DNA from: Paracoccus sp. DMF-8
Lineage (GTDB): Bacteria; Pseudomonadota; Alphaproteobacteria; Rhodobacterales; Rhodobacteraceae
NCBI RefSeq assembly: GCF_029309835.1
Contig: NZ_JARJHL010000011.1
Coordinates: 186,001 to 250,000, forward strand
Length of the DNA stretch: 64,000 nt
Direction of reading: 5' to 3'
Shown here piece after piece: positions 10,504-49,434 of this stretch; position 1 is the first letter of the stretch; every line of letters starts with the position of its first letter. The notes beneath the pieces were generated by a model. The model saw only the letters and a list, made by a program, of their open reading frames with translations. It made no database searches and had not been told where the DNA came from. A program made the translations under genes and the position numbers.

Positions 10504-11145
10504 AAACCTTTCCCGACCTGAGTTTCGAGGAAGCGGCACGGGCACGCGGCGCGCGCATCATCGCGGGCGTCGACGAGGTCGGGCGCGGCCCGCTGGCCGG
10601 GCCGGTGGTCGCGGCGGCGGTGATTCTGGCCGGGCCGCTGCCCCCCGGCATCAATGATTCGAAACAGACCAGCGCGCGCCGGCGCGAAAATCTGGCCGAA
10701 TGGATCATGGAGCATTGCATCTGGGGGCACGGCCTTGCCGATGTCGCCGAAATCGACCGGCTGAACATCTACCACGCCTCGCATCTGGCGATGTGCCGCG
10801 CGGTGGAACGGCTGGCCCAGCATCCGCGCGGTATGATGCCCGATTACGTTCTGGTCGATGGCAAGGCGGTCCCGTAGGCGTTGCAGATCCCGGCCGAGGG
10901 AATCATCAAGGGCGATGCCCGTTCGCTATCGATCGCGGCAGCCTCGATCGTGGCCAAGGTGCTGCGCGATCGGATCATGGTGGATTTGGCGCAACAGCAT
11001 CCCGGCTATGGCTGGGAGAAAAACGCGGGTTATCCGACAGCGCAGCATCGCGAATCTATCCACAGGCTGGGGATAACTCTACATCATCGGCGTTCGTTCA
11101 AACCCATCCACAACATCTTGTGTAAAGACCAAAAGCCAAGTTGTT

Positions 11146-39059: not shown

Positions 39060-39503
39060 TCAGGTGGCAGTCCAGCGGGCCAGCGCGGCGTCGTCGCTGT
39101 CCCTGGCCGTGACCCATGCGCCGGGGCCGTCGGCGGTGATTTCGCGCTTCCAGAAGGGCGCGCGGGATTTCAGCCAGTCCATCAGGAATTCCGCCCCCTG
39201 AAAGGCTGCGGCGCGGTGGCGGGCAGCGGTGGCGACCATCATGATCGGCTGACCGACGGCGATCAGGCCGTAACGGTGGATGACCAGCCAGTCCGACAGG
39301 CCGAACCTGTCGGCGGCCCTGCGCCCGTAATCGTTCAGCAGGTTTTCGGTCATGCCGGGGTAATGTTCGATTTCCAGCCCGGTCAGGCGCCCCCCTTCGC
39401 CCCGGACCAGCCCGGAAAAGGTGACGATCGCACCCGCGCCCTTGCCGAAACCCGCCAGTTCTGCGGCAAGGTCAAAGGCTGCGGTCTGGACGCGGGCGAC
39501 CAT
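39060..39503 (-). CDS. moaE: Molybdopterin synthase catalytic subunit MoaE
   Basis: Large subunit of the enzyme that adds the dithiolene sulfurs to molybdopterin. 147 residues. LEIEHYPGMTE, VIHRYGLIAVGQP and APFWKREI are family motifs, including the Lys residues of the active site. 1 nt gap after moaD. Confidence 0.94.
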   Translation of the reverse strand: MVARVQTAAFDLAAELAGFGKGAGAIVTFSGLVRGEGGRLTGLEIEHYPGMTENLLNDYGRRAADRFGLSDWLVIHRYGLIAVGQPIMMVATAARHRAAAFQGAEFLMDWLKSRAPFWKREITADGPGAWVTARDSDDAALARWTAT

Positions 39504-39504
39504 C

Positions 39505-39756
39505 CTAGCCCCCGGTCATCGGCGGGAAAAAGGCGATCTCGCGCGCGCCCGTGATCGGCGTGTCCAGTTCGGCCAGTTCCTGATCGACCGCGCAGCGCAC
39601 CGCCTGCATGTCGGCAAAGGCCAGCGCGTGCCAGTCATCCATCGCCGCAAGCTGCGCAACCAGTTCGGCAACGGTCGCGGCTTCGGTTTCGATCCGTTCC
39701 CTGGGCTGGCCGATGCGTTCGCGCAGCCATGCGAAATACAGGACATCAACCTGCAT
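39505..39756 (-). CDS. moaD: Molybdopterin synthase sulfur carrier subunit MoaD
   Basis: Ubiquitin-like sulfur carrier, about 83 residues, ending with the essential Gly-Gly that is thiocarboxylated. An upstream GTG at 39765 is in frame, but ATG 39756 is closer to homologous starts. Overlaps the pgsA 3' end. Confidence 0.92.
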   Translation of the reverse strand: MQVDVLYFAWLRERIGQPRERIETEAATVAELVAQLAAMDDWHALAFADMQAVRCAVDQELAELDTPITGAREIAFFPPMTGG

Positions 39757-40375
39757 CGCGGTCACGCAGATAGGGTTTGGCCTTGACGAAATAATCCCAG
39801 CCCGTGATGGCGGTCAGCGCCGCCGCGATCCAGATCAGCGCCAGCCCCGCCTGCGTCGCCAGATCCGACCAGCTGTCGGACCATGGCAGGCTGGTTTCGC
39901 CGACCAGCGGCGGATGGCCGGTTTCGTAATAATTCAGCCCGGTGCCCAGAAACAGCACGGCAATCGCCACCATCTGAAAGGTGGTTTTCCATTTGGCGAT
40001 CCTGGTGACCTTGAGCTTGCTGGCATTGGCGCCCAGGAATTCGCGCAGGCCGGACACAAAGACCTCGCGGAACAGGATCACGGTCGCGGGCAGGATCAGC
40101 CAGGGGTTCATGCCGGAATAGCCGGTGATGACGACCAGCGCGATCACCACCATCGCCTTGTCGGCAATCGGGTCCATCGCCGCGCCAAAGCGGCTTTCCT
40201 GCCCCCATTTCCGGGCCAGATGGCCGTCGAACCAATCGGTCACGGCGGCGATCAGGAACAGGGCAAGGGCTGCGAAATCGGCCTCTGGCCTGCTGAAGCA
40301 GAAAAACATCAGCGGCACCAGAGGCGCCGCGATCAGCCGCAGAAGGGTCAGGATATTTGGCAAGGTCCAGCGCAT
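39746..40375 (-). CDS. pgsA: CDP-diacylglycerol-glycerol-3-phosphate 3-phosphatidyltransferase
   Basis: Makes phosphatidylglycerophosphate, the first step to phosphatidylglycerol. 209 residues. The CDP-alcohol phosphotransferase motif is complete in DGHLARKWGQ followed by SRFGAAMDPIADK. Four to six helices. First gene of pgsA-moaD-moaE. Confidence 0.95.
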   Translation of the reverse strand: MRWTLPNILTLLRLIAAPLVPLMFFCFSRPEADFAALALFLIAAVTDWFDGHLARKWGQESRFGAAMDPIADKAMVVIALVVITGYSGMNPWLILPATVILFREVFVSGLREFLGANASKLKVTRIAKWKTTFQMVAIAVLFLGTGLNYYETGHPPLVGETSLPWSDSWSDLATQAGLALIWIAAALTAITGWDYFVKAKPYLRDRDAG

Positions 40376-40512
40376 GCGCGCAATCTAGGGCTTTGCGGCG
40401 GCGGGGGGAAGGGGGCAGTCATCCGCAAGGACCCGCCCATCCCGCCGACAGAGCTTGCCCCCGCTCCGGTGCCGGTCCAAGACGGGTGCGTAATGAGTTG
40501 AAAGGATCGGCC

Positions 40513-41073
40513 ATGACCCAACCGGAACGGAAACAACCCTGGTATCGCAGCTGGCAAAAGCTTGCGGCTGCGCTGATCGTGGCGGTCGCCTTGGCGCCCT
40601 TTGCCGCGATGATGCTTGGCAAGCCCTTTCTGCCGTCTCCGGCATGGGCGGAAAGGTCGCAGACGGCCGCGCTGATCGCGGGCGGATTGATTGCCGTGTT
40701 CTTTGCGATCTGGGTCGCGGGGGCGATGTTTCCGCATTACCATCCCCTGCGCCGGATCGTGGCCCGGCTGGCCTTTGCGGGCGCGGGATTCGCCCTTGGC
40801 CTGCTGGTGGTTTCCGTCACCGCGCCGATGGCGATGGCGCTGGTCGCGGGGCAGCAGACGCAGATCACCTATGTCGTCGACAATGTGCCACGCTATGACC
40901 GGCGCGGCTGCCGCGGTTCCGTCGAACTGCAGGACATGCCGCCGATCTACGACAGCCTGTGCGGCATCCGGTCCGAGGTCCGCAGCAAGCTGGCGCGCGG
41001 ACATCGGATCGCGGTCGAGGGGCGTGGCACCGCGATGGGCCTGTTTCCACAGCGGATCGTCACCGCGCGCTGA
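40513..41073 (+). CDS. Membrane protein of unknown function
   Basis: 186 residues: three hydrophobic helices (about 17-38, 52-72, 83-103) followed by a C-terminal soluble region with two cysteines (RRGCRGS and DSLCGIR) and TQITYVVDNVPRYD. A good AAAGGA ribosome site precedes the ATG. No family is recognised. It lies between two minus-strand genes and is a single-gene unit. Confidence 0.65.
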   Translation: MTQPERKQPWYRSWQKLAAALIVAVALAPFAAMMLGKPFLPSPAWAERSQTAALIAGGLIAVFFAIWVAGAMFPHYHPLRRIVARLAFAGAGFALGLLVVSVTAPMAMALVAGQQTQITYVVDNVPRYDRRGCRGSVELQDMPPIYDSLCGIRSEVRSKLARGHRIAVEGRGTAMGLFPQRIVTAR

Positions 41074-41076
41074 GGG

Positions 41077-42960
41077 CTAGCCCGCGTTGAAATGGTCGTG
41101 GATTTTCCGGGCCAGCGATTCGCTGATCCCGTCGACGGCCATCAGATCGGGCATACCAGCGCGGCTGACCGCCTTGGCGCTGCCGAAATGCGCCAGCAGC
41201 GCGCGTTTGCGCGATGCGCCGACCCCCGCGATTTCGTCCAGAGGGTTCGCCATCACCGATTTCGCCCGCCGCGCGCGGTGGGTGCCGATGGCCCAACGAT
41301 GCGCCTCATCCCGCAGGCGCTGGATGAAATACAGGACCGGATCATTCATCGCCAGGGCAAAGGGGCGCTGGCCGGGACGGTGGAATTCTTCCTTGCCGTG
41401 ATCGCGGTCGACGCCCTTGGCGACGCCCAGAACGGGGATGTCGTCGACCCCCATCTCGACCATGATTTCATGAACCGCGCTGATCTGCCCCGCGCCGCCG
41501 TCGATCAGCAGCAGGTCGGGCCAGGCTTCGGTCCGGCGATCCGGGTCGTCTTTCAGCAGGCGGGCAAAGCGGCGGGTCAGCACCTCTTTCATCATGCCGA
41601 AGTCGTCGCCGGGGGTGATTTCCGTCCCCTTGATGTTGAACTTGCGATACTGGTTCTTCATCCAGCCATCGGGCCCGGATACGACCATGCCGCCCACGGC
41701 ATTGGTGCCCTGGATATGGCTGTTGTCATAGATCTCGATCCGGCGGGGCGGGGCGTGCAGGTCCAGCTTTTCCGCCAGACCATCCAGCAGGCGCATCTGA
41801 GTCGCGCTTTCCGACATGCGGCGGGCCAGCGATCTGCGGGCATTGCGCAGGGCGTTTTCCACCAGCTCGGATTTTTCGCCGCGTTGGGGGACGCCGATGG
41901 TCACGCGACGCCCCGCGCGTTCCGACAGAATGTCGGTCAGCAGATCCTGATCCTCGACCCCGTGGGACAGCAGGATCATGCGGGGGGGCACCTTGCCATC
42001 GTAGAACTGCGCCAGAAAGGCCTGCATCACCTCATCATGTGATTCGGCACCGCCAAGCCGGGGATAAAAGTCGCGGTTCCCCCAATTTTGATTGCCACGG
42101 ATGAAGAAAACCTGAACGCAGGCCTGTCCGTTTTCCATATACAGCGCGAAGATATCGGCCTCGGGGACGCCGCGCGGGTTGATCGCCTGCACCGATTGCA
42201 CGGCGGTCAGCGCCTTGATGCGGTCGCGCAGGGCGGCGGCGCGTTCGTATTCCATATCCTCGGACGCCTGCGCCATCTGGGCCGCAAGCTCGGCCTGAAT
42301 GCTGGTCGATTTGCCCTGCAAGAAGCGTTCGGCATCCGACACCAGCGCCTGATAATCGGCCAGCCCGATCCGGCCCACGCAGGGACCGGCGCAGCGCTTG
42401 ATCTGAAACAGCAGGCAGGGCCGGGTGCGCGACTGAAAGGTCGCATCCGTGCAGGATCGCAGTTGGAACACCCGCTGCAACTGGTTCAGCGTCCGGTTCA
42501 CCGCGCCCGCGCTGGCAAAGGGGCCGTAGTAATCGCCCGGCTCCGATTTGGCGCCGCGATGTTTCTTGATCTGGGCGAATTCGTGGGATTTCGCGACCAG
42601 GATATTCGGGAACGACTTGTCATCGCGCAGCAGCACGTTGTAGCGGGGCTTGAGCTGCTTGATGAGGTTCTGTTCCAGCAGCAGCGCCTCGGTTTCGGTG
42701 CGCGTGGTCAGGAACATCATGGAACAGGTTTCGCGGATCATCCGGGCGATGCGCCCCGAATGGCCGGTCATCCGCGCATAGTTCGACACCCGCGCGCGCA
42801 GGTTCCGGGCCTTGCCGACATACAGAACCGCGCCCTGATGATCCAGCATCCGGTAGACGCCGGGGCTGCCGTCAAGGTTGCGGACATAGTCCTGGATCAG
42901 GGCGCTTCCGGTCAGGCCAGCGGGCCGCTCGGGTGCCTTTTCTGGGGGTGCGTCGGTCAT
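41077..42960 (-). CDS. uvrC: Excinuclease ABC subunit C
   Basis: Makes the dual incision in nucleotide-excision repair. 627 residues. The N-terminal GIY-YIG domain begins [20 protein letters not shown]. The UVR region is about 200-240, the RNase H-like nuclease about 390-550 ([36 protein letters not shown]), and the C-terminal HhH motif [17 protein letters not shown]. Confidence 0.97.
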
Positions 42961-43259
42961 GCTGTTAACAAAGTGATTCCCGCGACTGGCTGCAAGTTCC
43001 GAAGGGTGAGATCAAGGCGAAACCTATCCACGGAATCTGTGGATAACTTTGTGGAGAAAGGTTCAATCACAGAGTGTAACCCGCGGCTCACCGGGTTTTC
43101 GATGGTTTGCTTAAAAAATAGGCATCTTTTAAGTGCATTGAAAATAAAGGAAATTTTATGTGATAATCGCAAGCCGCTGATATTCCGAGTGTTTTTCTGA
43201 CGGAACCGTGACGGATAGGTGAAAGGTGCACAACTTGTCGCAGCCCCTGCGTGTGCGGC
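42961..43259. promoter_or_regulatory. 299-bp region with a DnaA-box palindrome and GANTC site before uvrC
   Basis: The inverted repeat TATCCAC-GGAATCT-GTGGATA (43025-43045) includes a perfect DnaA box TGTGGATAA (43038-43046) and a near match CTATCCACG (43024-43032). A GAATC (CcrM site, 43033-43037) sits in its spacer; another GATTC is near 42974. The rest is an AT-rich stretch (43105-43195) with no supported ORF. Probable promoter region of uvrC. Whether DnaA binds here is unknown. Confidence 0.55.
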
Positions 43260-44030
43260 CTATTCCACGCCCAGAATATCCGGGGTGCGCCAGCCCAGAT
43301 GCTGCCCGCCATCGACGCAGATCAACTGTCCCGTGACCGAGGGCGAATCGAGGAAAAAACCCACTGCCGCCGTCACATCCGCAGCATCCGCGCCGCGTTC
43401 CAGAATGGTCGCGGCGCGCTGGCGGGCAAAGTGATCGGCGGATTGGCGGATGCCCTGCATGGTCGGTCCCGGCCCGATGGCATTGACGCGGATATCGGGC
43501 GCCAGCTCTCGCGCGGCGGTCTGTGTCAATGTCCACAGCCCGGCCTTGGCCAGCGAATAGGTCATGAATTCCGGCGTCGGTTTCAGCACGCGCTGATCGA
43601 CCATATTGATGATCAACCCCTGCGCGACAGGTTCGGCCCCGCTGCGGTCGGCGGCGGGGACCTGCGCGGCAAAGGCCTGCGTCAGCAGAAAAGGCGCCTG
43701 CAGGTTCGAATGGAAATGCCGCCGCCAGCTTTCGCGGCTGGCCGTGCGGATATTGTCATATTCAAAGATCGAGGCGCTGTTGACCAGCACCCGCAACGGG
43801 CCAAGCGCCTCTGTGACGCGCGGCACCAGTGCCTCGGCCGCGTCCAGATCCAGCAGATCGGCCTGAAAGGTTTCGGCGCGGACGCCAAGGGCGCGGGCCT
43901 CGGTCGCGGTGGCCAGGGCGTCTTCGGCCGAGCCGTTGTAATGGATCGCCACATCCATGCCGCGCCCGGCCAGATACAGGGCGATCGCCCGGCCAAGACG
44001 GCGGCCGGCGCCGGTCACGAGTGCGGTCAT
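43260..44030 (-). CDS. SDR-family reductase, FolM/pteridine-reductase-like
   Basis: 256 residues. NADPH motif TALVTGAGRRLGRAIALYLA, the NSAS motif, catalytic YSLAK (Tyr-x3-Lys) and the PGPTM segment are visible. The order and the GRRLGRAIA cofactor loop resemble dihydromonapterin/pteridine reductases rather than FabG. It reduces a pterin or other carbonyl with NAD(P)H. Confidence 0.82.
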   Translation of the reverse strand: MTALVTGAGRRLGRAIALYLAGRGMDVAIHYNGSAEDALATATEARALGVRAETFQADLLDLDAAEALVPRVTEALGPLRVLVNSASIFEYDNIRTASRESWRRHFHSNLQAPFLLTQAFAAQVPAADRSGAEPVAQGLIINMVDQRVLKPTPEFMTYSLAKAGLWTLTQTAARELAPDIRVNAIGPGPTMQGIRQSADHFARQRAATILERGADAADVTAAVGFFLDSPSVTGQLICVDGGQHLGWRTPDILGVE

Positions 44031-49402: not shown

Positions 49403-49434
49403 AAAATGCGTTAACGGGCCCCGAAGGGCCCGTT
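49403..49434 (-). terminator. Terminator after dnaJ
   Basis: A 9-bp stem AACGGGCCC/GGGCCCGTT (49413-49434) which on the minus strand has a TTCG tetraloop, followed by AACGCATTTTT. It is 3 nt past the dnaJ stop and ends the dnaKJ transcript. Confidence 0.82.

Follow-up and report, generated by a model that had tools for sequence, protein, structure and literature searches.

The intergenic region upstream of uvrC

The DNA analysed was a 64-kb stretch (the window) of contig NZ_JARJHL010000011.1 from Paracoccus sp. DMF-8, and all coordinates given without another source are positions in this window. An element of 133 bp was found in the intergenic region between a short-chain dehydrogenase gene and uvrC, with a palindrome of the form TATCCAC-N7-GTGGATA (43025-43045, N7 being GGAATCT) as one of its ends. 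The features of the region are listed below.

39746..40375, minus strand: next gene after uvrC, which we take to encode a pgsA-like phosphatidyltransferase
41077..42960, minus strand: uvrC, 627 aa (Pfam UvrC_RNaseH_dom, GIY-YIG, UVR)
42975..42979, no strand: GANTC in the leader of uvrC, fully conserved (59/59 family loci)
42988..42999, minus strand: leader block GAACTTGCAGCC, conserved in the family according to alignments
43022..43154, minus strand: whole element, 133 bp, matching positions 3-137 of the 140 positions of model R2 (described below)
43024..43032, plus strand: DnaA box I, inverted, CTATCCACG, two mismatches to TTWTNCACA, head-to-head with box II
43033..43037, no strand: GAATC (CcrM-type GANTC) in the spacer between boxes I and II, weakly conserved
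43038..43046, minus strand: DnaA box II, TTATCCACA, perfect, from the sequence
43050..43058, minus strand: DnaA box III, TTCTCCACA, one mismatch, 12 bp upstream of box II, from the sequence
43109..43123, no strand: palindrome GCCTATTTTTTAAGC, AT-centred, in agreement with the published Fis consensus
43131..43142, minus strand: IHF-like site TTCAATGCACTT, degenerate, from the sequence
43260..44030, minus strand: short-chain dehydrogenase (Pfam adh_short_C2), on the far side of the element from uvrC

Towards uvrC, the order is the degenerate IHF-like site, the palindrome with the Fis consensus (GnnYAnnnnnTRnnC, as given in the available text of PMC8682772), 50 bp, and then DnaA boxes III, II and I, with box I ending 63 bp before the uvrC ATG. 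In this direction the three boxes read TTCTCCACA-AAG-TTATCCACA-GATTC-CGTGGATAG. Boxes I and II stand head-to-head, 14 bp from start to start, and box III, which has the same orientation as box II, precedes it by 12 bp. The stretch beside the boxes is AT-rich, with a GC content of 0.40 compared to 0.65 for the window. The original prediction, which had described the palindrome as a perfect DnaA box and a near-perfect inverted one with a GANTC in the spacer, was correct in each of these parts, the inverted box having two mismatches. It had overlooked the third box adjoining the palindrome, the AT-rich palindrome beyond box III, and the unity of all of these as one conserved element.

TATCCACN7GTGGATA has no second match in the window, even with two mismatches allowed (0.10 expected; 10 of 100 shuffles have one), and the exact match is unique in the 4.05-Mb assembly. 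DnaA boxes with at most one mismatch were not enriched across the window (11 found versus 12.2 expected). The 14-bp pair of boxes has one further match in the window, at 49406, which looks spurious and has no R2 match. A site in rnhB, proposed earlier as a comparable combination of GAATC and a DnaA-like box, turned out to be background, as it did not match the element model and its partner box is at 12 bp and not at 14. In that site (11052-11076) GAATC overlaps CTATCCACA (11052-11064) and is followed by GGC and TGGGGATAA, so that a DnaA-like pair stands head-to-head at 12 bp. A structured RNA was also considered and rejected, with Rfam giving two weak matches only, both below gathering scores.

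The genes downstream of the element follow the order uvrC-pgsA-moaD-moaE (39060-42960). Of 27 loci from the class, 24 have a pgsA homologue no more than about 1.5 kb beyond uvrC; one of these homologues is weak and lies on the opposite strand. In 13 of the 27 loci moaE was nearby. A homologue of the dehydrogenase was present at 27 of 29 family loci and at 17 of the 27 class loci. The leader block at 42988-42999 probably belongs to the promoter or leader of uvrC; inspection by eye found no sigma-70 promoter in the leader block of the family. The leader GANTC at 42975-42979 adjoins a conserved TTGCAGC block.

Conservation and genomic places of the element

With blastn, the 331-bp stretch 42940-43270 gave matches in 51 of the 61 genus genomes, most of which stopped near query position 115 and spanned the uvrC start to the far end of the box cluster. 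R1, a model of sequence alone that covers 130 bp and was built from 27 of the 30 genus loci fetched, matched 187 of 198 family genomes, or 186 of 197 genera. In the sample of the order, all rows of which come from one family, 147 of 149 genomes matched R1. The uvrC gene was directly downstream at all 30 fetched loci, this genome among them, and alignment of the fetched family loci showed that the gap between the dehydrogenase and uvrC is conserved in blocks. Box II and an inverted box I (three mismatches at most) were 14 bp apart at 30/30 loci of the genus and 29/29 of other genera, all chosen as best matches. Box I carries three mismatches in most of the genus and family loci, with 8/30 and 6/29 passing a limit of two. 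Conservation across Paracoccus had been named beforehand as a check on the palindrome, and its absence as a reason to give up the idea; the palindrome element is conserved.

At E <= 0.1, R1 matched 128 of 190 genomes of the class, with the matches outside the family covering mainly the boxes, and uvrC was present at 14 of the 17 best R1 loci outside the family. The gene itself was found in 180 of the 190 class genomes, three of them from this family; 147 others were listed with their places. Regions of up to about 1 kb upstream of uvrC (less at contig ends) were sampled from 107 of these 147 non-family genomes, and because the best-scoring uvrC were taken first, reduced genomes are under-represented in this sample. 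The box pair at exactly 14 bp (at most one mismatch in box II and two in the inverted box I) occurred in 57 of the 107 regions and was absent from 50 at the limits used. Other spacings between 9 and 40 bp were seen in 0-6 regions, except for 26 bp, the distance from box III to box I, which was seen in 26. The 14-bp pair was found on the opposite strand in 8 of the 107 regions, and ten sets of dinucleotide shuffles gave it in 0-1 of 107.

Among the 57 class elements, 55 have a box III (three mismatches at most) that precedes box II by exactly 12 bp, compared to 0-24 at other offsets, this mismatch limit being loose. IHF-like sites were found 97-100 bp before box II, of which 23 were perfect (WATCARNNNNTTR) and 43 were within one mismatch, and 46 Fis-type sites, by a looser pattern, were found 77-79 bp before box II. 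The distances between the IHF-like sites, the Fis-type sites and the boxes are fixed, and over some 100 bp the spacing therefore varies by no more than 2-3 bp.

A second model, R2, was trained on alphaproteobacteria only, with 46 elements from the class and 4 from the family, which match it by construction. One of the 57 class elements (L241) looked spurious by eye and was excluded, and two more had too little upstream sequence; 54 were written out and 46 used. In the 64-kb window R2 gave 71.7 bits (E 1.3e-21) at the element and no other place below E = 0.1, the two other matches (E 0.12 and 0.16) overlapping the element. At E <= 0.01, R2 matched 144 of the 190 class genomes. Among the 104 non-family class genomes with both places listed, the best R2 match was before uvrC and on the same strand in 86, at 21-918 bp from the start of the UvrC match, and the best listed match was elsewhere in 18, some of these being weak. 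The best match was at uvrC in 40 of the 58 listed class genomes that had not been used for training, and none of the 46 training genomes was among the 18 with the match elsewhere. No R2 place was listed for 43 of the 147 class genomes with a listed uvrC, though some of them show weak E-values.

The loci away from uvrC that we studied numbered 18, consisting of 16 fetched loci (from 13 of the 18 genomes, with further sites in G505, G423 and G388) together with L125 and L130. None of these held uvrC, and five kept the dehydrogenase (44-54% identity). At one locus (L301) the element adjoins uvrB, and at L130 and, outside the class, L279 it adjoins a pgsA homologue.

In the phylum R2 matched 194 of 249 genomes, one of which had nine matches. 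Up to nine element matches were seen in small genomes outside the class (family f157). Twelve loci from outside the class were fetched and the neighbours of seven scanned with Pfam: an amine oxidase gene was found beside four, with COQ7 opposite in three of these, and the remaining three elements were located at hemE, in a gap between SpoU methylase and CDP-alcohol transferase genes, and in a gap with radical-SAM and DEAD helicase genes on its two sides. The exact composite pattern was present in at least 117 stretches of a named genome collection, of which 80 were listed. Their titles name Alpha-, Beta-, Zeta- and Gammaproteobacteria, with the classes assigned by us from the organism names, and they also include Citrifermentans, which we take to be a genus outside Pseudomonadota, and metagenome bins labelled Nitrospira and Desulfobulbus. 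A uvrC gene follows the match within 1.2 kb in 55 of the 80 listed stretches. Among the remaining 25, five have no more than 400 bp of sequence left on the side expected for uvrC, and ten were looked at further. The next gene was priA in one Dechloromonas and one Azonexus, the order in Mariprofundus was amine oxidase-element-COQ7, and that in the Desulfobulbus bin, which may be contamination, was hemE-element-priA. R2 matched all 14 of the listed loci on which it was run, with 41-69 bits. The Citrifermentans bremense locus (L351), from the genome of a strain, has an exact composite match with 45.8 bits, and two neighbouring ORFs that were scanned gave no Pfam match.

Comparison with E. coli sites and alternative readings

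In E. coli, DARS sites recharge DnaA, the replication starter protein. We compared the element with a 158-kb sample of E. coli K-12 MG1655 comprising DARS1, DARS2, oriC, the datA area (datA being taken as the stretch between tRNA glyY and queG) and two 40-kb controls. The triple of boxes with 12- and 14-bp spacing (mismatch limits 3/2/2) occurred at the DARS1 and DARS2 cores only, and not in oriC, the datA area or the controls. R2 ranked DARS1 first (31.7 bits, E 9.4e-9, positions 11-137 of 140), followed by putative datA (19.6 bits, 66-126), oriC (17.6 bits, 62-123), DARS2 (17.5 bits, 74-136) and a match of 9.9 bits. Only the matches at DARS1 and DARS2 run through box I, whereas those at oriC and putative datA stop at box II.

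DARS1, between bioD and uvrB, reads TAATACACA-TGG-TTATCCACA-GGAAT-AGTGGATAA, and the order, orientation and 12/14 spacing of its boxes III-II-I equal those in the window. Both sites carry TATCCAC-N7-GTGGATA and both adjoin a uvr gene. The flank beside the DARS1 core, reported to be stimulatory for DARS1, also aligns to R2, but its similarity is weak. DARS1 differs in that it is on the strand opposite to uvrB, lacks a clear IHF-like site or palindrome in the part of the flank that aligns (31.7 bits for DARS1 versus 71.7 for the window element), and is next to uvrB and not uvrC. The core of DARS2, near mutH, reads TTCTTCACA-ACT-CTATCCACA-GAAAA-GGTGAATAA and has the same 12/14-bp triple as the window; it was identified as the core because the triple sits between the arms, 38 bp apart, of a deletion of DARS2 boxes I-III described in the available text of PMC4585315. 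IHF and Fis belong to DARS2; in the window the IHF-like site is degenerate and the palindrome fits the Fis consensus. However, by strict consensus the distances from box II, in the direction of box III, are 137 bp for a Fis site and 425 bp for an IHF site of DARS2, and not 78 and 99, and R2 aligns to the core part only. At about 1050-1112 of the E. coli DARS2-mutH locus (L142), TTATCCCAG faces a perfect box head-to-head, with a weak R2 match of 9.8 bits.

According to the available text of PMC10380432 and PMC8682772, head-to-head boxes I and II are characteristic of DARSs and essential, letting two DnaA-ADP molecules touch and drop their ADP, and box III is stimulating. IHF and Fis act at DARS2 (same sources and PMC4245941), and PMC4245941, in the portion available, describes both Fis and the core of DARS2 as confined to relatives of E. 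coli among the gamma-proteobacteria.

Although an AT-rich stretch beside DnaA boxes would suit a chromosomal replication origin, it is extremely improbable that the element is one. In a congener (G047) what we take to be the KOPS motif switches polarity within the region from about 60 to 120 kb. This region holds parS (67.6 and 69.4 kb) and, at 72.7-72.9 kb, three perfect boxes adjoining AT-rich DNA, whereas uvrC of G047 is located at 2,914 of 3,222 kb, with no turn of polarity there. On 11 large contigs, treated as circular, uvrC was about 220-740 kb from parS. The identity with oriC was rejected on the basis of KOPS polarity, parS and this better origin candidate; GC skew was too weak for use in placing the origin. 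The likely origin of G047 (about 12600-13050 of L058, 72.6-73.0 kb of contig C1) is about 3 kb from the nearer of the two parS. It shares with the element a perfect box, a second box 12 bp away and AT-rich DNA, but differs in that its R2 match is partial, with 13 bits, and ends before box I. In three genus genomes (G011, G013 and G036) a pair of perfect DnaA boxes recurs exactly 153 bp apart.

The element could also be an operator through which DnaA, with no exchange of nucleotides, represses or times the transcription of uvrC-pgsA-moaDE, and hence excision repair and the synthesis of phosphatidylglycerol. Box I is close to the uvrC ATG (63 bp) and is followed by conserved leader blocks in the family, pgsA is kept after uvrC at most class loci (24/27), and E. 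coli DARS1 overlaps the promoter uvrBp3, with DnaA repressing uvrB (PMC6015884, available text). Nevertheless, the distance to uvrC varies between 21 and 918 bp while the inside of the element is fixed, the best listed match is elsewhere in 18/104 genomes (some weak), none of the 18 loci away from uvrC holds this gene, five of them keeping the dehydrogenase instead, and the elements examined in other classes adjoin other genes. Because it is also present away from uvrC, the element is not merely a uvrC operator, and we consider this explanation unlikely. The earlier suggestion of a link between uvrC and replication timing held in its general part, a conserved DnaA element fitting replication control, and found no support for a role specific to uvrC. 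Storage of DnaA by the cluster, or promotion of the hydrolysis of its ATP as at datA, is improbable: the combination of an IHF-like site with DnaA boxes is common to datA and the element, and putative datA comes second to DARS1 among the R2 matches in the 158 kb of E. coli, but this match ends before box I, the 12/14 triple is absent, and a head-to-head pair is a hallmark of DARS (PMC10380432, available text). The gating of the DnaA site by CcrM methylation of the spacer GANTC, as first proposed, is very improbable. The spacer GANTC is present in the window and at 20 of 30 genus loci, but at 11 of 29 loci of other genera and in 10 of the 57 class elements (counted in a slightly wider window), and this weak conservation does not support it as a part of the device. 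The GANTC in the leader, 60-100 bp after the start of box II, was found at all 30 genus and all 29 other-genus loci, and is the better candidate for control by CcrM/GcrA.

A candidate site for DnaA-ADP reactivation

We consider it probable that the element is a DARS-type site, a candidate predicted from its sequence, at which DnaA-ADP would be reactivated. The element is conserved in its anatomy and in its fixed internal spacing, its box geometry is equal to that of both E. coli DARS cores, and it is distinct from oriC; its class-wide version has, in addition to the core of boxes, an IHF-like site and a palindrome at set distances. By analogy with E. coli, DnaA-ADP would bind box II and, head-to-head, box I, with loading aided by box III, and the complex would be held by bending through IHF and a palindrome-binding protein. 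The opposed AAA+ domains would then be in contact and ADP would be released, after which the freed DnaA would reload with ATP and provide more DnaA-ATP for the next initiation at oriC.

Against the DARS reading, the IHF site in the window is degenerate and box I has two mismatches, and R2 gives oriC and putative datA scores no lower than that of DARS2 (17.6 and 19.6 versus 17.5 bits). The same sites could be used for titration or for datA-like hydrolysis. A stand-alone small Fis was not seen in this genome (assembly 84.5% complete), in which five HTH_8 matches were found in ORFs of 228-657 aa. For this reason, and because Fis is described as gamma-proteobacterial in the available text of PMC4245941, a protein other than Fis probably binds the palindrome. 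Repression of uvrC-pgsA by DnaA is possible as a side effect, since DnaA represses uvrB at DARS1 in E. coli (PMC6015884, available text). Acidic phospholipids have been suggested to help to make ATP-DnaA from ADP-DnaA (PMC10380432, available text), and by way of acidic phospholipids pgsA may provide a functional link between the uvrC-pgsA neighbourhood and DnaA-ATP.

The kind of site, DARS, is already known. Many proteobacterial species have conserved sequences that resemble DARS1 and DARS2, according to the available text of a review (PMC10380432, citing Fujimitsu 2009), and another review, likewise by its available text, places DARS-like sequences at uvrB and mutH in Vibrio cholerae (PMC6090056). 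Within the searchable literature on DARS in Alphaproteobacteria (Caulobacter, Rhodobacter, Sinorhizobium, Agrobacterium) or with uvrC, the available portions of PMC6090056, PMC6015884, PMC10532879 and PMC4285127 yielded no description of the element, and the alphaproteobacterial site and its architecture appear to be undescribed there.

A wider idea we regard as tenable but somewhat short of probable. A single ancestral DnaA-reactivation element, with an IHF site, a dedicated palindrome and boxes III-II-I at fixed distances, may have been kept, as a single copy or several, throughout Pseudomonadota and perhaps further afield, in places typical of each lineage (uvrC in Alpha-, priA in some Betaproteobacteria, and in other lineages the gap between an amine oxidase gene and COQ7). 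The E. coli DARS would then be worn-down descendants of this element, and the alphaproteobacterial palindrome would be bound by a protein that is not Fis.

We know of no described DARS-type site in alphaproteobacteria. With a conserved candidate of 133 bp, the recycling of DnaA-ADP outside gamma-proteobacteria becomes testable by a deletion of a few bp. If the reading is true, DARS would be an old device, with an architecture fuller than E. coli DARS1 shows.
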